Below, piece after piece: positions 7,554 through 49,386 of a DNA stretch of 64,000 nucleotides. The stretch comes from Bacillus sp. 103mf. Its GTDB lineage: Bacteria; Bacillota; Bacilli; Bacillales; Bacillaceae_G. Where the stretch lies: the NCBI RefSeq assembly GCF_900116295.1, contig NZ_FPAF01000005.1:224193-288192 (forward strand), in the 5' to 3' direction. The position numbers and the translations under genes are program-made. The notes below the pieces were generated by a model that did not search any database, was not told the DNA's origin, and worked only from the letters and a program-made list of their open reading frames with translations. Position 1 is the stretch's first letter, and every line of letters begins with the position of its first letter.

Positions 7554-8078
7554 ATGCTGAATAAAGAAATTCAAGAGTTGTTTGACGATCTCAATTTATT
7601 TGCCAGACAAATTGCAAACGTAAGATTGTCAAATTTATTATTTGATGTGTATGAATTTAAAGATGAATATGCAATACAAGTAGACTTAATATTCGCTAGA
7701 AAAGGTCAATTTAATAACATTCAAGAGGCATTTTCTGCACTATTTAAAAAGGAATTGTTCGATGGAGAGGAATGGGATATTAGTGATGAGCCAGACCCTT
7801 CAGATGAACAATGGATAACAGCACTAAAAGATATCTGGATTAATGCATATTATGCAAGAGTATGTGCTTGCATAGAGTTAGTAAACAAAGATGGTTTTAT
7901 AAGTAGATTTAAAAGGGATTTAGCTGATGTCAATGCACCAAAATCAGTTGTTAAAGAACTTTTAATTAGACTAAATCATATTGAAACAGTACAAGTACAA
8001 AAAGGGTATATCTATGATTACATATTCGGACAATCTGATAGCCATTACTTTTTGTTTGAATGGGGAATATATGATTAG
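7554..8078 (+). CDS. Unknown acidic protein, 174 aa
   Basis: I do not recognise this protein. It is predicted soluble, mostly helical and acidic (for example DGEEWDISDEPDPSDEQW near residues 70-90), without signal peptide or membrane segment. The start at 7554 is supported by GAGGGGG five bases upstream; an upstream ATG at 7524 has no site. Size, acidity and the next gene (Imm30 family) would suit an immunity protein of a polymorphic toxin system, but there is no direct evidence. Confidence 0.55.
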   Translation: MLNKEIQELFDDLNLFARQIANVRLSNLLFDVYEFKDEYAIQVDLIFARKGQFNNIQEAFSALFKKELFDGEEWDISDEPDPSDEQWITALKDIWINAYYARVCACIELVNKDGFISRFKRDLADVNAPKSVVKELLIRLNHIETVQVQKGYIYDYIFGQSDSHYFLFEWGIYD

Positions 8079-24819: not shown

Positions 24820-25362
24820 ATGAATTACCAAAAAATGAGCAAAGAAATTTCTTATGCGCTTCGTCATGCTCCATGGAAGTATGAATTAGAATTAGATGAC
24901 GAAGGATGGGTGCCAGTTAATCAGTTATTAACTGCATTGCATCAATCAAAAGAATGGGAAAATATTACACAAGAAGATATAGAAAAAATGATTTTAATAT
25001 CAGAAAAAAAGCGGCACGAATTATCAAATGGAAAAATTAGAGCTTTATATGGTCATTCTGTTCCAATGAAGATTATTAAGAAGAAAGCTATACCGCCTAG
25101 AAAACTATATCATGGAACTTCACCAAAATTTATGGAGTCCATTAGCGAATCTGGTTTGTTACCAATGTCCAGGCAATATGTTCATCTTTCAGAAGATATA
25201 GAGACAGCTAAACTAGTTGGTAAACGAAAAACCTCTGTTCCTGTTATCTTAATAATTGATACAGAAGAAGCTCAAAAAAAGGGAATTAAATTTTATCTAG
25301 GAAATGAAAAGGTATGGCTTGCAGATTCTATTCCAATAGAATGTATATCGATTAAGAAATGA
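24820..25362 (+). CDS. kptA: RNA 2'-phosphotransferase (Tpt1/KptA)
   Basis: This 180-residue enzyme transfers a 2'-phosphate from RNA to NAD, yielding ADP-ribose 1'',2''-cyclic phosphate. The four conserved residues of the family are present: R15-H16 in ALRHAP, R74 in KIRALYGHS and R136 in VGKRK. The NAD-binding LYHGTSP follows at residues 96-102. The length is standard. GGAGGG lies before ATG 24820. Bacteria lack the tRNA splicing that makes the natural yeast substrate, so its role is open. Here it sits among putative immunity genes, which suggests repair or defence against an RNA-damaging agent; that is inference. Confidence 0.9.
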   Translation: MNYQKMSKEISYALRHAPWKYELELDDEGWVPVNQLLTALHQSKEWENITQEDIEKMILISEKKRHELSNGKIRALYGHSVPMKIIKKKAIPPRKLYHGTSPKFMESISESGLLPMSRQYVHLSEDIETAKLVGKRKTSVPVILIIDTEEAQKKGIKFYLGNEKVWLADSIPIECISIKK

Positions 25363-33095: not shown

Positions 33096-33593
33096 ATGAA
33101 AGAAATGAGTCAACTTATTGCACAAATAGAGTCTTTATCTGATTGTCGTGTCCTTGAGCCTGCAGGAATACCGATAATTGACGAGAAGAAGCATATCCTA
33201 CCTGAGGAGGTAAAGGAATTTTACAGTCTTTGCGGAGGAATGGTTTTGTTTGAGAATGAGAAGTATCCGGTTTATATTGTCTCTCCACAAGAATTTATTT
33301 TAGCAAATCCGGTAATAATAGGTGAGCTGTGTGAAGATGATATGACTTCAAATTGGTATATTATATGTAATGATGGACAAGAAGAATACGTAACAATTGA
33401 TTTGCATCAAAATAGATTAGGGAAATGTTATGACAGCTTCTTTGATCGTCATGGAATTGTAGGGGAATCACAAATCATTGCAACATCGTTTACAGATTTA
33501 CTTGAAAGACTTATACATAATAAGGGGAAGTATTGGTATTGGCTGCAGAGTGATTTTGTATCACTCGGGGATGCTTATGATGGACTTATATAA
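33096..33593 (+). CDS. SMI1/KNR4 (SUKH) family putative immunity protein
   Basis: This 165-residue protein has the SUKH-1 layout: IDEKKHILPEEVKEFYSLCG, then GMVLFENEKYPVYIVSPQEF, then NWYIICNDGQEEYVTIDLHQ, then SQIIATSFTDLLERLIHNKG. These are the four core strands and the final helix of the fold. Such proteins are immunity factors to nuclease toxins such as WapA- or YeeF-type tips. AGGAG precedes ATG 33096. It ends 106 bp before a bidirectional terminator. The partner is unknown. Confidence 0.75.
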   Translation: MKEMSQLIAQIESLSDCRVLEPAGIPIIDEKKHILPEEVKEFYSLCGGMVLFENEKYPVYIVSPQEFILANPVIIGELCEDDMTSNWYIICNDGQEEYVTIDLHQNRLGKCYDSFFDRHGIVGESQIIATSFTDLLERLIHNKGKYWYWLQSDFVSLGDAYDGLI

Positions 33594-33773: not shown

Positions 33774-34730
33774 TCACGTATCAGAACTTATATTTTCGTT
33801 TCTACTTTTTTGAAATCTTTCATTATTTGTAACTGTACTTTCACTTGAAGAGTTCGTAATAACAAAAATCCCCCCCATAACCAATAGCATACCGAAAATA
33901 TGATACCAGAAAAGAGGTTCATGTAAGATAAGGGCTGATAAAACGACGGTGCTTATCGGCATTAAAGCAGTAAATACTGCTGCGGTTCCCGCTGATACTA
34001 CTTCTAATCCTTGATTCATCAATAGAACTGCTAGCACAGTAATTACAACGCCTGTATATAGTACTAGCAACCATATTAATGGAGAGACAGTAAAAAAGTT
34101 AAAATGTAAGGATTGATAAATTGCCAAAGGCAAAAATAATACGGCACCTGTTAAACTCATAATTGTCGTCATTGTTAAAGGTCTTAAAGGTGTGGAAATT
34201 AATTTTCCAAAGGAAAAGAAAACTGCTTCTCCAATAACAGCGCAAAAGATTAGTATATTTCCTATTAATGAATGTGAGTTCTCATTAAAATTTAAAAGTT
34301 GACCAAAAACATTAATAGATAATGTACCTAAAATGGTTAAAAAAATTCCTCCTATTTTATGAATCCCTAGTTTTTCTTTTAGAAAAAAATAAGAGATTAA
34401 AGCCATTATTGCAGGTGTACAACTCATAATAATGCCGCTGTCTAAAGCTGTTGTTTTTTTTAATCCATATAATGTGCATATGCTAAATAGGAACACACCT
34501 ATAAAACTTTGAAGAAAAAATATAACGTAATCCTTTTTTATGAGTTTCGGCATTTTTTCCCCTTTATATAAAAATAAAGGAAGTAGTATGAGGCAAGCAA
34601 GTAATAATCTAAGCTCAGAAGCAATAAATACAGGAAGCTCTTTAATAATGAACTTATTAACAATCACAAAGCTTCCAATTGCAACCATTGCAAATGAAAT
34701 TTGAATGTAAGCAAGTGTTTGTTTAGACAT
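33774..34730 (-). CDS. DMT-superfamily (EamA) transporter
   Basis: This 318-residue integral membrane protein has ten hydrophobic helices in two EamA repeats (roughly residues 5-140 and 150-290). The repeats end in EKLGIHKIGGIFLTILG and LHEPLFWYHIFGMLLVMGGI, the characteristic E...G...G patterns of drug/metabolite exporters. The substrate cannot be predicted. The C-terminus is a polar tail of about 25 residues. AAAGGAACTCC lies ahead of ATG 34730. It is single and divergent from the tRNA-Cys unit. Confidence 0.85.
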   Translation of the reverse strand: MSKQTLAYIQISFAMVAIGSFVIVNKFIIKELPVFIASELRLLLACLILLPLFLYKGEKMPKLIKKDYVIFFLQSFIGVFLFSICTLYGLKKTTALDSGIIMSCTPAIMALISYFFLKEKLGIHKIGGIFLTILGTLSINVFGQLLNFNENSHSLIGNILIFCAVIGEAVFFSFGKLISTPLRPLTMTTIMSLTGAVLFLPLAIYQSLHFNFFTVSPLIWLLVLYTGVVITVLAVLLMNQGLEVVSAGTAAVFTALMPISTVVLSALILHEPLFWYHIFGMLLVMGGIFVITNSSSESTVTNNERFQKSRNENISSDT

Positions 34731-35063: not shown

Positions 35064-35092
35064 TTGACACTTCTTTTTGCTAATAATACCAT
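35064..35092 (+). promoter_or_regulatory. Promoter of the tRNA-Cys unit
   Basis: TTGACA (35064-35069), a 17-bp spacer and TACCAT (35087-35092) would start transcription about 43 bases before the tRNA. The -35 is perfect; the -10 is moderate. Confidence 0.55.
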
Positions 35093-35141
35093 TAACAACG
35101 TAATAAGTAATCTTCAAATTGGCAGCTAAACTTTATGTAAT

Positions 35142-35212
35142 GGCAGTGTAGCCAAGTGGTAAGGCATAGGTCTGCAAAACCTAATTCCTTGGTTCAAATC
35201 CAAGCACTGCCT
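35142..35212 (+). tRNA. tRNA-Cys (anticodon GCA), divergent copy
   Basis: A 71-base cloverleaf: acceptor GGCAGTG/CACTGCC with discriminator U, D-arm GCC...GGC, anticodon arm TAGGT-CTGCAAA-ACCTA with anticodon GCA, T-arm CTTGG-TTCAAAT-CCAAG. All stems pair, and U is present at position 8. CCA is not encoded. The acceptor and T-stems differ from the usual Bacillus tRNA-Cys as I remember it (acceptor GGCGGCA). It lies 25 bp before a protein gene on the same strand, with the ribosome site in between and no terminator, so it probably forms the 5' part of an operon transcript. Confidence 0.93.
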
Positions 35213-35237
35213 CTATTCATTTTAAGGGGGATAACAT

Positions 35238-36131
35238 ATGTCGAATTCAATCAATGTAAAAAAGAAAGGAATTCATCAATTAGTTGCATCAGAAGAAGAA
35301 ATGATCAAATTAATTAGTGAAGAGTTAAAAAATACTACTCAAGAAAAATTAGCAATTATGTCAGGACATTTTATGCTTTTTTTTAATGAAGAAACGAATA
35401 ACTTAACTCCTGGAATTATCGAAGAGCAGAAAACAGGCATAATGAAAGAGCGGATTTCACGTAGAGTAGGTATATTCCCTATGTATACTTGGGATATTGG
35501 AATTCAGTTAGGTGAGCAATTTTATGAACAATTTAAAGATATTAAATTCCTGTTATTAATTAATGATTGGCAATATGTCCCTTCTACAAATGCAAGTGTT
35601 AGCGACCTTCGTAAAGAATTTTACGAAAGATATACAGAAATTCCAGAAGCTTACGTTACAAGTTTAGAAAAGAGTAAGTACTTTAATCAACAAAGTATTT
35701 TGTCTAGCCGAAAAAATCCAATCTTTTTTCCGGAAACTTGGCTTAAATATAGATTTCAAAAAAGCGCTAGTAAGCTAGTGAAAGATGGAAAATTAGAAAA
35801 AAGAATGTTAAATGATCGAGACAATCAATCTGAAGTATCGTTTTTAGATGAAGATGGAAATTATAAAACATTAATTAGTTGCGGTATAACTGGATGTGCA
35901 GGAGAAATTACAGAAATGATTGCTGAGGTATATAAGGCGGGTTATAGAGCATTATTATTATTTGCGCCTGGGGAGTGTTACCAGCCAGTACGTACAGGGA
36001 TTGAAATTGCTCTTAATCTATATAATCTAACAGGCATGAAAGTTATCGTTGCAGATCCAGGAGGAAGCGGTGAAATGTCCAAGGAAGAAATCTATGAAAA
36101 GCCTATTAATTTTTCTGTGTTTTCTTCTTAA
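35238..36131 (+). CDS. Unknown 297-aa protein of tRNA-Cys unit
   Basis: I do not recognise the family. It is soluble and mixed alpha/beta. All three cysteines lie in the last 85 residues: C215 and C220 in LISCGITGCAGE, and C247 in LLLFAPGECYQPVRTG. That part also has alternating strand-helix signals (YRALLLFAPGE, MKVIVADPGGSG) like a Rossmann-type domain. AAGGGGG precedes ATG 35238. It is followed after 18 bp by a cysteine desulfurase gene, so the cysteines could accept sulfur from that enzyme. A role in modifying, charging or using the adjacent tRNA-Cys is a hypothesis from context only. Confidence 0.6.
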   Translation: MSNSINVKKKGIHQLVASEEEMIKLISEELKNTTQEKLAIMSGHFMLFFNEETNNLTPGIIEEQKTGIMKERISRRVGIFPMYTWDIGIQLGEQFYEQFKDIKFLLLINDWQYVPSTNASVSDLRKEFYERYTEIPEAYVTSLEKSKYFNQQSILSSRKNPIFFPETWLKYRFQKSASKLVKDGKLEKRMLNDRDNQSEVSFLDEDGNYKTLISCGITGCAGEITEMIAEVYKAGYRALLLFAPGECYQPVRTGIEIALNLYNLTGMKVIVADPGGSGEMSKEEIYEKPINFSVFSS

Positions 36132-36149
36132 TAAAGGAGGACAATGTTT

Positions 36150-37301
36150 ATGAGACAAGTGTACTTAGATTATGCTGCTACCACTCCGTGTCATAATAAA
36201 GTGGTCGAAGTGGTGGAGAAGTACATGAAAACAGAATTTGCAAATCCATCGTCTCAGCATGTGATGGGAAAAAAAGCACAGTATGCAGTTGAGCAAGCAA
36301 AAAGTAAAATTGGTATTTCTATTGGTGCTGATAAAGAAGAAATAATATTTACTTCAGGTGCAACAGAAAGTAATAATTTGGCATTATTGGGAGCCGTTGA
36401 TTATTATGAAAAAGAACCGGTAAATGTAATTCTCTCTCCTATAGATCATAAATCGATTCTAGGGGCCGGCAAAGAGTTACAAAGAAGAGGGATTATCGTA
36501 AAATATGTGGATATTAATCGTGATGGAACTATTTGTTTAGATTCATTGCGATACTTGTTAGATGATAATACAAGGGTTGTTAGTTTTGCATATGTTAATT
36601 CTGAAGTTGGGACAATTCAGCCTATCAATGAAATCTCTGCTCTATGCAGAAAGTATCAAACATTGATACATGTAGATGCTGTTCAAGCTTTCGGAAAAAT
36701 ACCAATTGATGTAAAAAAATTAGATATCGATGCTTTATCATTATCGGGACATAAAATTTATGGACCAAAAGGCATAGGCGTTTTATATGTAAATCAACAC
36801 AAACAGAAAGATTTCCGGCCTTTACTATTTGGTGGTGAACAAACATATTTACGCAGTGGGACATTACCGACTTCACTAATAGCTGGTATGGGAGTAGCAA
36901 GTGATATTGCTGTATTAGAACTAGAAGAAAATTATGAAAAGGTAAAGAGATTAAGAACAATTGTTGTAAAACGAATTCAACAAGAAATACCTCATTCTTG
37001 CGTAAATGTATGCATGGAAAATAGTATACCTCATATTATAAATATAATGGTTCCAAACATTAGTTCAGAAACACTTATAGCAGGTATGAGAACTGTTTCT
37101 ATCTCTTCAGGATCTGCTTGTAACTCAAGTAGTTTAGAACCGTCATATGTTTTACAAGAGATTGGATTAACAAAAGAAGAAGCAAATAGTTCTATTCGTA
37201 TATCAATTAGTCCATATTTAAGTGAAGAAGAAGTCTTGTATGCTGTTGATGAGATTGTAGCGAAAATTAAAGATATTTATTGTGTACAACAAGGATTTTA
37301 A
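36150..37301 (+). CDS. Cysteine desulfurase, group I (NifS/IscS type)
   Basis: This 383-residue PLP enzyme removes sulfur from cysteine as an enzyme persulfide and releases alanine. It has the N-terminal YLDYAATTP, GATESNN (about 71-77), the PLP lysine K202 in LSGHKIYGPKG, and the active-site C324 in SSGSACNSSSLEPS on the long flexible loop typical of group I. ATG 36150 lies nine bases after AAAGGAGG; ATG 36144 is too close. It has no iron-sulfur scaffold, thiI or mnmA gene nearby. It is linked to the tRNA-Cys and the unknown three-cysteine protein, so it is probably a dedicated sulfur donor. Confidence 0.88.
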   Translation: MRQVYLDYAATTPCHNKVVEVVEKYMKTEFANPSSQHVMGKKAQYAVEQAKSKIGISIGADKEEIIFTSGATESNNLALLGAVDYYEKEPVNVILSPIDHKSILGAGKELQRRGIIVKYVDINRDGTICLDSLRYLLDDNTRVVSFAYVNSEVGTIQPINEISALCRKYQTLIHVDAVQAFGKIPIDVKKLDIDALSLSGHKIYGPKGIGVLYVNQHKQKDFRPLLFGGEQTYLRSGTLPTSLIAGMGVASDIAVLELEENYEKVKRLRTIVVKRIQQEIPHSCVNVCMENSIPHIINIMVPNISSETLIAGMRTVSISSGSACNSSSLEPSYVLQEIGLTKEEANSSIRISISPYLSEEEVLYAVDEIVAKIKDIYCVQQGF

Positions 37302-37344
37302 TAATACTATCAATCATGTTGTACAAACAATCTTTTGTCTTTCC

Positions 37345-37371
37345 AAATGGGCATGTTTATGCCCATTTTTT
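37345..37371 (+). terminator. Terminator of the tRNA-Cys unit
   Basis: A stem AAATGGGCAT/ATGCCCATTT is followed by a T-run, 44 bp after the desulfurase stop. Confidence 0.75.
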
Positions 37372-42861: not shown

Positions 42862-45800
42862 ATGAAAAAGGAAAAACGAAAAAGGCGATGGTATCGGTAT
42901 GTAATCCAACTCATCGTAATGGCGTTAATTGTGTCTTCTATTCCGATGGGGACAATCGCAGAAACGGTGAATCATGACAAACCAGCGCAAGAAAACAAAG
43001 TTTCTTCTACTGAACAGCAACAAGTATCAGATAACAAACCTACTGAAGTGGTAGAAGAACGAACCGAACATGAAAAAGTGTTTGATAACAAGAATGGAAC
43101 ATTTACAAAGAAAGTCTATACAGAGCCTATACATACCGAAAAAAATGGGAAGTTAGAAGAGATTCAACCAGAGCTTGTTACAAAGACTACAGAAACGATT
43201 GAGACAAAAACAACAAAGTTAAAACCAACGTTTCAAAAAAGATTAGAACAGAAAGAATATGCAATCTTTGAAGTAGATGGTCACAAAGTTACCTATAAAT
43301 TAATAGGGGCAAAGGGTGAGAAGGAACAACTTCAACCATCTGAGGTTACAGCTACTTATGAAAAAAATAAGGTTTGGTATAAAGATATTTTTCCAAACAT
43401 TGATTTACGTACCATTACGTTTAATGACAAAGTAAAAGAAGATATTGTTCTGAATGAATATACAGGACATTATATCTTTACCTTCCAATTACAAACCACA
43501 TTGACACCGAAGTTACAAGAAGATGGTTCTATTTTGATGGTAGATGATAAACAAAAGACAGTGTTTACATTGCCAAAACCGTTTATGACAGATTCCAATG
43601 TACATCCTGAATCGAATGAAGCACCGATTTCAGAAGATGTAAAGTATACGTTAGAGAAACAAGAAGACAATACGTACAATGTAACCATTACAGCGGATCC
43701 GAAATGGCTGCAGGCTCCTGAGCGAAAATATCCGGTTTATATTGATCCTTCCATTGCGATGGAAAGTTTCCAAGAAGCTTACGTATCGAGTGCGTATCCA
43801 AAGAACAATTATTCAAGGTGGGTACTTTGGGATGAAAATCTGCAAGCTCATACGTTAAAAGTTGGCTATTTTGACAATACAACTGGCTATAATTTTGCCT
43901 ATATAAAGCCGGAAATTTCTAGTTTGAATGGCGCAATTGTGCATGATGCAAAGTTTTATGCCTATGCGGCGTGGCATTATTATGCGAATAGTCCAAATGA
44001 AGTTTGGTTAGATGAAGTCAAAGGTGACTGGGATTATATTACGATGAACTGGGAAACAAAACCGTGGTCCCAAGAAATCGCAGTTACGAATGTCGGCCGA
44101 AATCAATGGGCAGAATTTAATGTTACAGATACAGTGAGAGCTTGGCTCAGCGGTGAGAGACCGAACTATGGATTTAAGCTGCATCCGAACGGACGCGGAC
44201 AAACGCATTGGAAGAAGTTTATTGCGGCTTATAACGGAGGAGAGGCAGCACCGCATTTAGAAATTACGTATTCATATCCAAAGCCGAATAAACCTCGTTT
44301 ATCAGCCTATTCAAACGGTATGGGAAGCGGAACAGGACATATTAATGTGAACTGGGATCCGGTACCAGGAGCAATTGGTTATCGAGTAGGGATTTTTGAC
44401 GGGGCAGATTATAACTATTATCACGTTGGGAATACAACATGGTGGTCGACAAAGGATAAAAAAATCTGGCCAAGTCAAGAGGATGTAAACCGTGGCCGGA
44501 ATGAACTCCACTTTGACGGATTAGGCGGAGAATTTCCAACGAGTCCTTCTCAGCTATATCAAAATAATGGTTCTCAAGAACAAAGTAATGATAAACATGC
44601 TTACAAAATAAAAGTTGTAGCGGAGTATCCTCATGATGAAGTGAGTCCAGAGTCAGATGAAGAAAAGGTATTTATACCGCTAGAGGCACCGAAACAACCG
44701 AGATCGAATGTGTTTGCCAATTTAATAGGTTCTCAATCGGGATACATTGAGCTGAACTGGGATCAAATCCCTGGTGCTACAGGTTATCGCGTCATTTTTT
44801 ATAATGGAAAGAATCATGATGTATTTGATGTTGGAAATGTAACGAAGTGGTCTACACAAGGAAAGAAAATGTATCCAACGGCAGATGAATTAAAAAGTGG
44901 TCGTTACCAATTCCACACGGATGGAATGGGAGAAGAACTTGCGCTAAACCCTTCTCAGCTGTATCAAAATGCAGGGGACTTTAGAAGCGATAAGTATTGG
45001 GTTCATATTCAAGCCTACAGTAATATTGGGCATGCCGAAAGTACGTATTCTCCAGATTACGGCATTAAAATGACAGAACCAACAGAAATTTTTGGTCTAA
45101 AAGATTATATTGCCTCTGTTGATGTCATCGGTGGTAAAGTAAATGCGACAAACGGGAACTTTGTCATGGATGAATCGGACTTCACCTTAACAGGACGTGG
45201 TCCTGACTTACGCATTGACCGCGTATACAACAGTAACAGCACAGAACAAGGCGTATTAGGAAAAGGCTGGACAAGTTCTTTTGATGAAAAAGTACAGGAG
45301 CAGCCAAATGGGGATCTGCACTTCATTTATGAAGATCGTGCAGTCGATCGTTTTGAAAAAGTAGGAGACAATTCCTACAAAGCGCCGCCGGGTGTGTTTT
45401 TAGAAATTAAGAAAATAGATACTGGATATACGGTTACTGATAAAGATCAAACGGTATCAGAATATGATAAACAAGGCCATTTAACAAAGGTAAAAGACGA
45501 ACATGGTAATACGCTTACGTATCGCTATGAAAATGATCGTGTTGTAGAAATTACAAACGCTTCTAACCGTACATTGTCTTTACAGTATAATACAGACGGG
45601 CTATTAACAAAGCTTGTCGGCCCTGAGAATCGTACAGTTACGTATGATTATAAAGATGGCCAGTTAGTGGGTGTAACAACACCAAGAGGAAAACAATATC
45701 GATACGGTTATGAAAATGGGAAACTACGTTATACGTATGACCCAAAGCATACAGAAGAAAATCCGTATAAAACTACGTACACGTATGAAAATAATCGTCT

Positions 45801-48800
45801 AGTTGGCGTGACAGATGCACTTGGAAAGGAAACAAAGCTTTCGTATAATCAAGAATTACGCGAAGTGACTGTTACAGATCCAAAGCAAGTGAAAGATGTC
45901 CATCAATATAATCTTGCAGGAAATCCAGCAAAAACAATTGTAGATGCAGACGGATTAAAATTAACGACAACCTATGAATACGAAACAAATAACCTAACGA
46001 AAAAAACAGATCCAAAAGACCAAGGAAAACGCGTTTCCGAAAGTTATACGTATGATAGTAAAGGGAACGTAACATCTGCGACGGACGCAATTGGAACAGA
46101 GAAGTATGAATATAATCAAAATAATGATGTAACGAAAGTAACAGATGCAGAGGATAAAGCGACGTCTGTAACATATAACGGTGCCAATGCCGTTTCGGAA
46201 ACAGACTATCAAGCGAAAACGTCATCTGTGACGCAGTATGATTCTTATGGAAATCCGATTCGCGGCAGTTTAGAACTAGCGCCGGGTGGTAATTTATTAC
46301 GAAACCCTGGTTTTGAAGCAGGTGGTGATCGTTGGGAGCTGCGTGGATGGAACGATGGCGGAAAAAATGAAATAGATGGAACGGTTCGCTCCTCAGAGTT
46401 AGGACAAGTATCCTCTTTGCGCATGGAAACAAAAGCGACTACTGGAGATTGGGGAGCAACCATTGCGAGCCAAAAAGTAACAGTTGATCCAAAACGTCCC
46501 TATATTTTTAGTGGTTGGATAAAAACAAAGGATTTAGTAAAGGCGAGTGCGTATTTTCATATCGTTGAGCTGGATGGAAATGGAAATCGTGTAGGAACGA
46601 CATTCTCTAACTATCATAGCAAAGTAAATGGCACAACCGATTGGACAAAACGACAAGTACCCATTGTGACTTCTGAAAAAACACATCAGTTGTTAATTGA
46701 GTTATTTACGGATCATGCGGATACAAGTGGAAGTGGAACGGCATGGTTTGACAGTTTACAGCTAGAAGAAGGACCAGTTGCTTCTTCTTTTAATCCAGTA
46801 CCTAACTCTAGTTTTGAATACTATGGAGACAAACTAGAAGGATGGCATACATGGCAAAACGTACCGATAGATACTATCGGGGAAGGGTTTGGAGGACAAG
46901 CAGCGCTTGTGATGGAACGAAAGAGTCCAACTGATCCAAATCCAGATCTGCATTATCGTCAAGAAATTACGATAAATCAAAGCCAGGCGAAAGATATCAC
47001 AATTACCGCAATGTCCAAAGCGGAAAATGTGAAACACAGCAGTACATCTCAGCCAAACAATGGATATTCTGTTTGGGTCTATGCCGAACATGAAGGCGGA
47101 ACATGGAAAAGCTATTACATCACGTTCCCGCTTGGCACAAAAGATTGGAACCGCGGAGGAGTTGTCATCCCAGCATCCGCAGGGGCGATTAAACGCATTC
47201 AGCTTCATACGATGTTTGATCAAGAACATACCGGAAAAGTATGGTTCGATGATATCCGGATTATGGAAGGGAATCACTTAACGAAAACAGAGTATGATGC
47301 AGATGGCAACTTTATTACTGCAATCTATGATGAAGAAAACCGTAAGAATACATTTACGTACGACACGTATGGAAACAAAACAAGTGAAACAGATGAAAAA
47401 GAAAATAAAAAGACCTTTGCCTATAACGAAGATAATCAATTAACAAAAACAACACTCGCAAATGGTACGTCTGTTTCATACAGTTATGATGATAATGGAA
47501 ACACGACAGAGAAATTGGTGACAGCCGGCGGAAAAACGCAAAAGAACATCTTCGAGTATGATGTGGATAACAAACTAACTGTCTTCCAAGATGCGTTATC
47601 GCGAAAAATTGTACACGAGTATGATGCAAATGCGAATAGAACAAAGACAACTCTGCCAACAAACGCTGTGTTAGAATGGGAGTACGACGCGGCAAACCGA
47701 GCGATTAAAGCAAAACGAAACGGCAAAGATGCATTCTCCTATGCATATGATGAGAACGGAAATGAAACACAGGTAACGGATCATATCAACGGAATCACAC
47801 GTGAAAAAGCATATGACGAAGGCAACCGCATCATCAGCATGACAGACCGCGGTGGCAGCGTAAAATGGTCGTATCAACCAAAATCTCATAAACTAAAAGA
47901 TACAACAATCAGTCATGGTTCATATAGCAACACAACAAACTATGAATATAACGCCTTAAATCAAAATACGAAAGTAATCGATAATGGAAAAACATTCTAT
48001 TTTGATTACGACGAATTTGGAAACGTCGTTCGTTATCAGGCCGGCAATGATACAGCGGCCCAATTTACGTATGACCATACCAAGAAAATTACGAACTTAC
48101 AAATTGGTACAAAAGATTCACAGCGTATTTTAGAAGAATCCTATACGTATGATGCAACAAGCAACCGCACCGCAATCGAACGGAAAACTGGTGACAAAAC
48201 AGAAAAAACAACATACGCATATGACGCTATTAACCAATTAACAAGAGAAACATTACCAAATGGTACAATGAAAGAATACAGCTATGACGGCTTTGGAAAC
48301 CGCATAGGCGTACAAGTAACAGAAGCAGGGAAAGCAGCCGTATCGACAACAGCTGTATTTAACGACGGTAATCAGCTGACGAAGTTTGGCAACGAATCCC
48401 TAACGTATGACGCCAACGGAAACCGTACATCCGATGGCAAATACAAATACACATGGAACGAAGCAGACCAACTTATCGCCATCACAAAACAAGGTGAAAG
48501 CACACCATTTGCGACATATAAATACGATGACGATAATCGTCGTATTGAAAAAACAGTAAACGGTACAACGACACGTTATCACTATGACGGCGACAGCATC
48601 AATCCACTATATGAAACAGATGGAAGTGGAAACGTCCTTCGTCAATATGTATATTCCGTAGACGGCATTCGCCTTGCGATGAAGTCCCAAGGCCAAACGC
48701 TATATTACCACTACAATCCACGCGGCGACGTCATTGCGATGACAGATGAAAACGGACAAGTTGTAGCAAACTACGAATACGATGCATGGGGTAATGTCTT

Positions 48801-49386
48801 AAAGAGTGACGCAAAAGGTATTGCCGCAGAGAATCCATTTGGGTATGCGGGATATATGTATGATAAAGAAATTGGGATGTATTATCTAATAGCAAGATAT
48901 TACAATCCAACTCATGGTGTGTTCTTGTCAGTTGATCCGGATCCGGGTGATGAGGATGATCCGCTTACGCAGAATGGATATACGTATGGGAATAATAATC
49001 CGGTGATGATGGTGGATCCGGATGGGCATAAGGCTAAAGGATTAATTAAGATTGTGAAATGGGTATGGAATCAAGGAAAAAAAGCATATAAAACATATCA
49101 ATATTCTAAAATGGTTAAGAATGATTTGAAAAGTTTGGGGAAACAGCCTAATAAAGTAAAGCATGTTTTGGCTGAAAAACACAATTGGAATAAAGTTACC
49201 AATAAACCTAATAATTATAAATCCGTATCAAAAGTCATGCACAAGGTTATGAAAAGTGGAAAGGAAAGTGCATATAAAAAATCTGCATATCAAAAAAACC
49301 TTAAAGTAAAAGGGAAAAAAGTAACCGTGACGTATGTCAAACTTCCAAATGGAAAAGTAAAAGTATCGAATGGGTGGGTAGAATAA
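42862..49386 (+). CDS. wapA: WapA/Rhs-type wall-associated polymorphic toxin (complete)
   Basis: This 2174-residue contact-dependent toxin carrier has an N-terminal signal/anchor (about 12-32), a charged region to about 290, and a DNRLRE-type domain (about 295-470) that attaches to the surface. Two fibronectin-like domains begin near 473 and 610. A DUF6531 domain starts near 752 (IGGKVNATNGNFVMDESDFT), followed by more than twenty YD repeats. Two jelly-roll carbohydrate-binding-like domains lie within the repeats (about 1144-1310 and 1313-1470). The Rhs core ends with NPFGYAGYMYDKEIGMYYLI (from 1990) and VDPDGH (about 2053). The last 119 residues form the toxin tip (KHNWNKVTNKPNNYKSVSKV, then KKVTVTYVKLPNGKVKVSNG), perhaps a BECR-fold RNase. 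Its stop overlaps the next gene. Confidence 0.9.
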   Translation: MKKEKRKRRWYRYVIQLIVMALIVSSIPMGTIAETVNHDKPAQENKVSSTEQQQVSDNKPTEVVEERTEHEKVFDNKNGTFTKKVYTEPIHTEKNGKLEEIQPELVTKTTETIETKTTKLKPTFQKRLEQKEYAIFEVDGHKVTYKLIGAKGEKEQLQPSEVTATYEKNKVWYKDIFPNIDLRTITFNDKVKEDIVLNEYTGHYIFTFQLQTTLTPKLQEDGSILMVDDKQKTVFTLPKPFMTDSNVHPESNEAPISEDVKYTLEKQEDNTYNVTITADPKWLQAPERKYPVYIDPSIAMESFQEAYVSSAYPKNNYSRWVLWDENLQAHTLKVGYFDNTTGYNFAYIKPEISSLNGAIVHDAKFYAYAAWHYYANSPNEVWLDEVKGDWDYITMNWETKPWSQEIAVTNVGRNQWAEFNVTDTVRAWLSGERPNYGFKLHPNGRGQTHWKKFIAAYNGGEAAPHLEITYSYPKPNKPRLSAYSNGMGSGTGHINVNWDPVPGAIGYRVGIFDGADYNYYHVGNTTWWSTKDKKIWPSQEDVNRGRNELHFDGLGGEFPTSPSQLYQNNGSQEQSNDKHAYKIKVVAEYPHDEVSPESDEEKVFIPLEAPKQPRSNVFANLIGSQSGYIELNWDQIPGATGYRVIFYNGKNHDVFDVGNVTKWSTQGKKMYPTADELKSGRYQFHTDGMGEELALNPSQLYQNAGDFRSDKYWVHIQAYSNIGHAESTYSPDYGIKMTEPTEIFGLKDYIASVDVIGGKVNATNGNFVMDESDFTLTGRGPDLRIDRVYNSNSTEQGVLGKGWTSSFDEKVQEQPNGDLHFIYEDRAVDRFEKVGDNSYKAPPGVFLEIKKIDTGYTVTDKDQTVSEYDKQGHLTKVKDEHGNTLTYRYENDRVVEITNASNRTLSLQYNTDGLLTKLVGPENRTVTYDYKDGQLVGVTTPRGKQYRYGYENGKLRYTYDPKHTEENPYKTTYTYENNRLVGVTDALGKETKLSYNQELREVTVTDPKQVKDVHQYNLAGNPAKTIVDADGLKLTTTYEYETNNLTKKTDPKDQGKRVSESYTYDSKGNVTSATDAIGTEKYEYNQNNDVTKVTDAEDKATSVTYNGANAVSETDYQAKTSSVTQYDSYGNPIRGSLELAPGGNLLRNPGFEAGGDRWELRGWNDGGKNEIDGTVRSSELGQVSSLRMETKATTGDWGATIASQKVTVDPKRPYIFSGWIKTKDLVKASAYFHIVELDGNGNRVGTTFSNYHSKVNGTTDWTKRQVPIVTSEKTHQLLIELFTDHADTSGSGTAWFDSLQLEEGPVASSFNPVPNSSFEYYGDKLEGWHTWQNVPIDTIGEGFGGQAALVMERKSPTDPNPDLHYRQEITINQSQAKDITITAMSKAENVKHSSTSQPNNGYSVWVYAEHEGGTWKSYYITFPLGTKDWNRGGVVIPASAGAIKRIQLHTMFDQEHTGKVWFDDIRIMEGNHLTKTEYDADGNFITAIYDEENRKNTFTYDTYGNKTSETDEKENKKTFAYNEDNQLTKTTLANGTSVSYSYDDNGNTTEKLVTAGGKTQKNIFEYDVDNKLTVFQDALSRKIVHEYDANANRTKTTLPTNAVLEWEYDAANRAIKAKRNGKDAFSYAYDENGNETQVTDHINGITREKAYDEGNRIISMTDRGGSVKWSYQPKSHKLKDTTISHGSYSNTTNYEYNALNQNTKVIDNGKTFYFDYDEFGNVVRYQAGNDTAAQFTYDHTKKITNLQIGTKDSQRILEESYTYDATSNRTAIERKTGDKTEKTTYAYDAINQLTRETLPNGTMKEYSYDGFGNRIGVQVTEAGKAAVSTTAVFNDGNQLTKFGNESLTYDANGNRTSDGKYKYTWNEADQLIAITKQGESTPFATYKYDDDNRRIEKTVNGTTTRYHYDGDSINPLYETDGSGNVLRQYVYSVDGIRLAMKSQGQTLYYHYNPRGDVIAMTDENGQVVANYEYDAWGNVLKSDAKGIAAENPFGYAGYMYDKEIGMYYLIARYYNPTHGVFLSVDPDPGDEDDPLTQNGYTYGNNNPVMMVDPDGHKAKGLIKIVKWVWNQGKKAYKTYQYSKMVKNDLKSLGKQPNKVKHVLAEKHNWNKVTNKPNNYKSVSKVMHKVMKSGKESAYKKSAYQKNLKVKGKKVTVTYVKLPNGKVKVSNGWVE

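Follow-up and report, generated by a model that had tools for sequence, protein, structure and literature searches.

A Bacillus cassette of tRNA-Cys, an LPD16 protein and a cysteine desulfurase as a possible core of tRNA-dependent sulfur biosynthesis

To our knowledge, the enzymes of tRNA-dependent biosynthesis normally use the translational tRNA pool. The aminoacyl-tRNA-dependent enzymes of natural-product pathways include, in the available portion of PMC12945691, cyclodipeptide synthases (CDPSs), PEARLs, GNAT-fold transferases, the IleRS-like SbzA and the AlaRS-like AcmF. The 64,000-nucleotide stretch of Bacillus sp. 103mf analysed here (contig NZ_FPAF01000005.1, positions 224,193 to 288,192; hereafter the window) carries on its forward strand a tRNA-Cys gene with anticodon GCA (35142-35213), an open reading frame (ORF) for a 297-residue protein, P1 (35238-36131), and an ORF for a 385-residue group I (IscS/NifS-type) cysteine desulfurase, P2 (36144-37301, likely start 36150). 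An earlier sequence-only reading of the window had reported this tandem arrangement on one strand, and it is confirmed by ARAGORN, Rfam (72.2 bits for the tRNA against a cut-off of 29) and the ORF list. We hold it an even question whether a tRNA-dependent pathway is built around the cassette, with the dedicated tRNA supplying the aminoacyl group for a small molecule. The principle is a known one; what is new is the uncharacterised enzyme family, the tRNA of its own and the tie to sulfur.

CDPSs are small, lack an anticodon-binding domain and look like class I synthetases, those of class Ic in particular; they couple two amino acids. They are like the cassette, as read here, in drawing amino acids from aminoacyl-tRNA for natural products (available portions of PMC12945691 and PMC4159871); unlike them, P1 comes with a desulfurase and, at some loci, with a tRNA of its own. 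PEARLs such as TglB, which uses Cys-tRNA-Cys on the way to 3-thiaglutamate, likewise rely on a cysteinyl-tRNA donor in a sulfur amino-acid pathway, yet they are LanB-like and extend a precursor peptide with ATP, and the same portion of PMC12945691 mentions no tRNA of their own. The tRNA-Other of Bacillus cereus and the peptidoglycan tRNAs are also tRNA-like RNAs outside translation; tRNA-Other differs in flanking a pathogenicity island and carrying a Trp anticodon, with no such enzyme operon mentioned in the available portion of PMC3399842. As for the desulfurase, P2 belongs to the same group I family as IscS/NifS, DndA and SspA, and differs in its pairing with P1 and in branching separately from those host paralogues that were tested. 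We know of no tRNA or desulfurase involved in the action of MshC, the mycothiol cysteine ligase and a paralogue of cysteinyl-tRNA synthetase (CysRS); unlike MshC, P1 has no detectable profile similarity to CysRS. A word search of the text of PMC12945691 returned none of 'desulfurase', 'tRNA gene' or 'dedicated', and no description of the tRNA-P1-P2 cassette was recognised in open-access titles and abstract openings, a scope that mostly excludes subscription literature.

The pairing of P1 with P2 is conserved. One genome per species was scanned with patterns taken from the window protein, so that more distant members may be missed, and 47 P1 loci were found (Bacillota 3, Pseudomonas 2, Xenorhabdus 4, Photorhabdus 8, Burkholderia 2, Brucella 1 and Streptosporangiaceae 27); two Priestia plasmids (L048 and L049) also carry P1. 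The 27 of these 49 loci that were aligned with the window copy are 49-66% identical to it in P1, and P2 lies directly downstream of P1 in 45 of the 47 loci and on both plasmids, the pair spanning three phyla. The exceptions are Photorhabdus thracensis (L030, 8001-9622), where the desulfurase is missing and a methyltransferase directly follows P1, and L047, a P1 fragment of 41% identity at a contig end that stands outside the alignment. The family is rare, being present in 2/398 genomes in the class of the Halalkalibacter host, in 1/104 genomes of the Paenibacillus host's family, in 1/247 of the Brucella host's family, and in 3/298 genomes of the genus Pseudomonas; six of these seven genomes represent loci already among the 47. 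The seventh is a Pseudomonas locus (L100, 261-2352) with a P1-P2 pair, its P1 94% identical to that of Pseudomonas L004, and no tRNA was found in its 3.9 kb.

P1 matches the Pfam family LPD16 (PF18830) over residues 100-196 (E 3.2e-9; 36.9 bits against a cut-off of 27), as do all 28 aligned members with E up to 1. It has no match in NCBIfam or PADLOC and only a chance-level match (E 0.48) among the sequences of solved structures, and in direct comparison P1 and P2 are unrelated. The three cysteines singled out by the sequence-only reading, C215, C220 and C247, are invariant in 28/28 aligned members. A single structure model predicts for P1 a HUP-type catalytic core as in class I aminoacyl-tRNA synthetases, in a chain too short for an anticodon-binding domain. 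The 50 fold matches listed for it are all synthetases and their paralogues, with cyclodipeptide synthases absent among those 50. The signature motifs HIGH and KMSKS do not occur as such; RVGI (76-79) and GSGEMS (276-281) appear by eye to be plausibly placed, with no statistical support.

P2 matches the aminotransferase class V family (PF00266, E 2.8e-77) and the Escherichia coli IscS structure 1p3w (E 8e-89). Its active site had been called intact, and K204 and C326, which we take to be the pyridoxal phosphate (PLP) lysine and the catalytic cysteine, are indeed invariant in 16/16 aligned cassette copies. The protein falls below the NCBIfam cut-offs for IscS (388 against 548 bits for NF010611 and 385 against 643 bits for TIGR02006) and below the curated cut-off for DndA (349 against 480 bits for TIGR03235). 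In a tree of 48 cassette copies and 12 host paralogues, the latter from 12 of 19 paralogue loci with the others removed by strand or length filters, the cassette desulfurases form one clade (100/100, branch 0.85) separate from paralogues of the same hosts; long branches were flagged in this tree, including the join of the cassette clade. Judged by sequence, P2 belongs to group I and to a cassette clade of its own.

A tRNA-Cys stands before P1, in the same place and orientation, in 6/6 Bacillota loci seen, namely the window, L001, L002, L003 and the related plasmids L048 and L049. Together these carry 11 copies: one each in the window, L001 and L003, two each in L002 and L049, and four in L048. 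The four copies of the Priestia megaterium plasmid stand in tandem (L048, 7439-7948), with two on the related P. aryabhattai plasmid L049, and an additional decayed copy, seen by eye, lies closer to P1 in L001. The anticodon GCA and the discriminator U73 are kept in 11/11 copies (U73 being base 35212 in the window), and CCA is encoded in 9/11, the exceptions being the window and L001. U33 is kept in 8/11, including the window copy, and has become C in both L002 copies and G in L003; a C-A mismatch in the T stem, noted by eye, is common to the tRNAs of L001 and L002. The T-stem region of a tRNA is read by elongation factor Tu. The bacterial cysteine identity elements given in the available portion of PMC9976931 are U73, G2-C71, C3-G70 and GCA, of which U73 and GCA are the major ones, so the Bacillota cassette tRNAs should, from their sequences, be charged with cysteine.

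The sequence-only reading had noted that this tRNA differs from ordinary tRNA-Cys, and its identity to five tRNA-Cys genes of three other Bacillota hosts is 68-80%, against 83-96% within those five. These five ordinary tRNAs lie in the tRNA arrays of the three hosts; in the tRNA tree, in which the branching order among the cassette copies is not settled, they form a group of their own (bootstrap 86) apart from the cassette copies, to which they are 59-83% identical. Given this separate grouping and level of identity, recent copying of the host gene does not account for the cassette tRNAs. Across the window and the loci, ARAGORN found 397 tRNA genes with 146 distinct sequences, of which 142 have U33, and the four that lack it are all cassette tRNAs. 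The 12 cassette copies, with Brucella included, represent 8 distinct sequences, so that U33 is lost in 4/8 distinct cassette tRNAs against 0/138 others (Fisher p 3.9e-6, to be read with care, the sequences being related by descent and drawn from few genomes).

Outside Bacillota, a tRNA-like element occurs in the alphaproteobacterium Brucella pecoris (L042), 40 nt before P1 and in the same position as in Bacillota. It is closest to the tRNA-Ala of its host (76% identity) and has a GAAA-capped stem in place of the anticodon loop, with neither U33 nor an anticodon. It ends in CCA and carries U73 instead of A73. The G3-U70 pair of tRNA-Ala is retained as well, leaving its amino acid ambiguous.

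The genes around the pair bear on its product. A methyltransferase dependent on S-adenosylmethionine follows P2 in all 14 Xenorhabdus, Photorhabdus and Burkholderia loci (P1 in L030), its identity taken from Pfam on L005, L007 and L008. A D-Ala-D-Ala-ligase-like ATP-grasp enzyme follows P2 in Pseudomonas L004, Brucella and both Priestia plasmids. EamA exporters follow the cassette in L001, L002, L004 and L042, directly downstream of P1-P2 in the first two, and the EamA/DMT transporter of the window (33774-34730, reverse strand, divergent from the cassette; Pfam) is 51-52% identical to the EamA proteins of L001 and L002 and is the probable product exporter; EamA genes near the Priestia loci are only distant (22-28%) and the neighbour clusters of L003 hold none. 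Brucella and P. guariconensis further have a radical-SAM-like protein (28.3 and 34.8 bits, cut-off 29.5) and a PLP protein of Cys/Met metabolism upstream. Among the 27 Streptosporangiaceae loci, neighbour clusters built from our own ORF calls, with Pfam identities taken from L018, include a condensation domain in 26, a ketosynthase in 25, a carrier in 23, and an adenylation domain and an ATP-binding cassette (ABC) exporter in 20 each. The condensation protein upstream of P1 in this family ends in a carrier-like domain (L018, 7750-7965) that looks inactive, as by eye it reads GGRVL or GGRAL at the site of the expected attachment serine.

The exporter, the methyltransferase and the amino-acid-type ligase among these neighbours point to an amino-acid-like building block as the product of P1-P2. 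The sequence-only reading had left open tRNA modification, tRNA-dependent metabolite synthesis, and a defence or stress function; the exporter, methyltransferase, ATP-grasp, non-ribosomal peptide synthetase (NRPS) and polyketide synthase (PKS) neighbours favour metabolite synthesis, which fits best, and modification and defence found no specific support other than what a desulfurase of any kind would lend them.

A pathway of this kind might proceed as follows. The host CysRS would charge the cassette tRNA, and P1 would bind its aminoacyl end. P2 would take sulfur from free cysteine, as its family does, and, judging from the pairing, the fold and the tRNA, could hand it as a persulfide to C215, C220 or C247 of P1. 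P1 might then combine sulfur with the aminoacyl group, for example by setting the amino acid free in the form of a thiocarboxylate or a persulfide derivative; this specific chemistry we consider doubtful. The overall picture suggests a small sulfur-containing, amino-acid-like metabolite, whose fate would vary by lineage: EamA export, methylation, D-Ala-D-Ala-ligase-like ligation or entry into an NRPS/PKS line. A poorly decoding tRNA would keep the aminoacyl pool off the ribosome, and at loci without the tRNA gene ordinary Cys-tRNA would serve, or the tRNA would be an add-on. In its boldest form, held tentatively and on balance somewhat unlikely, the proposal is of a new tRNA-dependent sulfur chemistry, in which a stand-alone class I-core enzyme, an operon-encoded non-translational tRNA and a desulfurase persulfide would yield an amino-thioacid or persulfide block, which Bacillota would export unchanged and other lineages would incorporate into larger products, the anticodon-free tRNA of B. 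pecoris being purely biosynthetic. If true, an operon's own tRNA, its decoding parts eroding in some lineages and its charging signals kept, would be a tRNA leaving the genetic code to become a metabolic cofactor, and new sulfur chemistry would be likely to come from the strongly conserved P1 family, for example in Photorhabdus, Xenorhabdus and Nonomuraea.

Several observations weigh against a tRNA-dependent pathway. The dedicated pathway of the sequence-only reading is partly supported: it gains from the P1-P2 pair at 45/47 loci, the 6/6 Bacillota tRNAs and the loss of decoding features, and loses from the absence of any ARAGORN tRNA beside P1 in 43/47 genome loci (only L001, L002, L003 and L042 have one; upstream sequence covered 280 nt in L027). 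P1 homologues lying elsewhere without tRNA or desulfurase had been named as telling against it; most of them do lie without the tRNA, but P2 has been kept. The tRNA gene is so either not essential to the P1-P2 core or replaced by a housekeeping tRNA-Cys, and ordinary Cys-tRNA would be available, as a tRNA-Cys lies elsewhere in the genome of 11/11 hosts searched by pattern (Bacillota, Pseudomonadota and Actinomycetota), with ARAGORN in agreement. The window tRNA looks able to decode, as do 8/11 Bacillota copies in all, and the Brucella element, at 29.6 bits barely above the Rfam tRNA cut-off of 29 and with a fold no more stable than shuffles (z 0.08), could be in decay. The P1 fold comes from one model with a mean predicted local distance difference test (pLDDT) score of 81.7 and values below 50 at residues 213-217, around C215; only 2/918 PDB matches in Foldseek reach E 0.001, both of them chains of E. 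coli arginyl-tRNA synthetase (ArgRS; E 1.9e-4, template modelling score 0.42, root-mean-square deviation 13 A). Alignment of P1 by hhalign with CysRS and ArgRS profiles, which are shallow (5-6 synthetases each), gave a probability of 0.3%, with no sequence homology detected, and the 11.3 of a segment test was exceeded by at least 10 of 60 shuffles; on these results sequence homology to either synthetase was set aside.

Among the loci without tRNA, those of Xenorhabdus and Photorhabdus share a conserved leader of about 110 nt before P1 (L005 and L008-L013, about 7860-7990). A leader peptide was rejected there, as alignment by eye leaves no frame open in all, and so was a tRNA-like RNA, nothing tRNA-like being seen by eye or found by ARAGORN.

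The alternative that survives best, though we think it fairly unlikely, is a tRNA-independent P1-P2 pair, in which P1, like MshC, would act on free cysteine or some other small molecule, while the Bacillota tRNA would only add to the tRNA supply or sense cysteine. A supply or sensor tRNA, however, should require a working anticodon loop, whereas U33 is lost in 3/11 Bacillota copies and the Brucella element is without an anticodon; the recurrence of tandem tRNA copies also tells against this alternative. Quite improbable is a role in tRNA modification, with P2 feeding sulfur to P1, which would thiolate the cassette tRNA or tRNAs generally. Desulfurases do supply tRNA thiolases and P1 has its three invariant cysteines, but no tRNA thiolase is among the 50 fold matches listed, the loci sit among NRPS/PKS, exporter and ligase genes, and it is the decoding part of the supposed target that degenerates in some loci. 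A spare or hitch-hiking tRNA gene with no relation to P1-P2, for example an integration site, seems very unlikely: islands are often flanked by tRNA genes (available portion of PMC3399842) and the window copy looks intact, yet the constant place and orientation in Bacillota, the tandem copies, the separate tRNA-Ala-like element in Brucella and the grouping of cassette copies apart from host tRNA-Cys all argue otherwise. Scarcely credible is a role in defence or phage biology, for instance through a system akin to phosphorothioate DNA modification. The P2 matches to the PADLOC profiles SspA (E 9e-130) and DndA (E 3e-128), which carry no cut-off, are of the kind given by any group I desulfurase; P2 matches IscS and NifS models equally broadly, and it also matches the phage family phrog_12787 (E 8e-110). 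P1, weakly matched to phrog_20795 (E 0.014), is in no PADLOC family, and phage records and viral contigs yielded no relative of it, on which ground its phage origin was also rejected.

Within the window, the cassette tRNA-Cys is the sole tRNA found by ARAGORN. It is separated from P1 by 24 nt, and P1 from the P2 ORF by 12 nt, or by 18 nt from the P1 stop to the likely start at 36150, which is favoured over 36144 and preceded by GGAGG. The sequence-only reading had placed the three genes between a promoter and a terminator. For the terminator, RNA folding finds a hairpin of 10 bp on the forward strand (37345-37368, -13 kcal/mol, z -3.7) followed by a T tract, missed by the pattern scan. The promoter-like site TTGACA-17-TACCAT (35064-35092, forward strand) has 10/12 consensus bases, and a promoter there is plausible; the region scan gave 13 hits against 15.5 in shuffles and, with a number not above shuffles, is no evidence for it.

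No plasmid came near the cassette in sequence, other parts of the window matched Bacillaceae plasmids over short stretches only, and among 398 genomes of the class the best match to a pullulanase probe was 69% identical. The Pfam scan of window neighbours took in five ORFs, and so bears only in part on the earlier statement that neither an iron-sulfur scaffold nor a known tRNA thiolase is close by. Upstream of the EamA exporter lies a SMI1/KNR4 (SUKH-1) protein (33096-33593), of a family that includes toxin immunity proteins, and an RNA 2'-phosphotransferase (Tpt1/KptA, PF01885) is found at 24820-25362, about 10 kb from the cassette. A 2174-residue protein with RHS/YD-type repeats, recognised by eye from its sequence, occupies 42862-49386.
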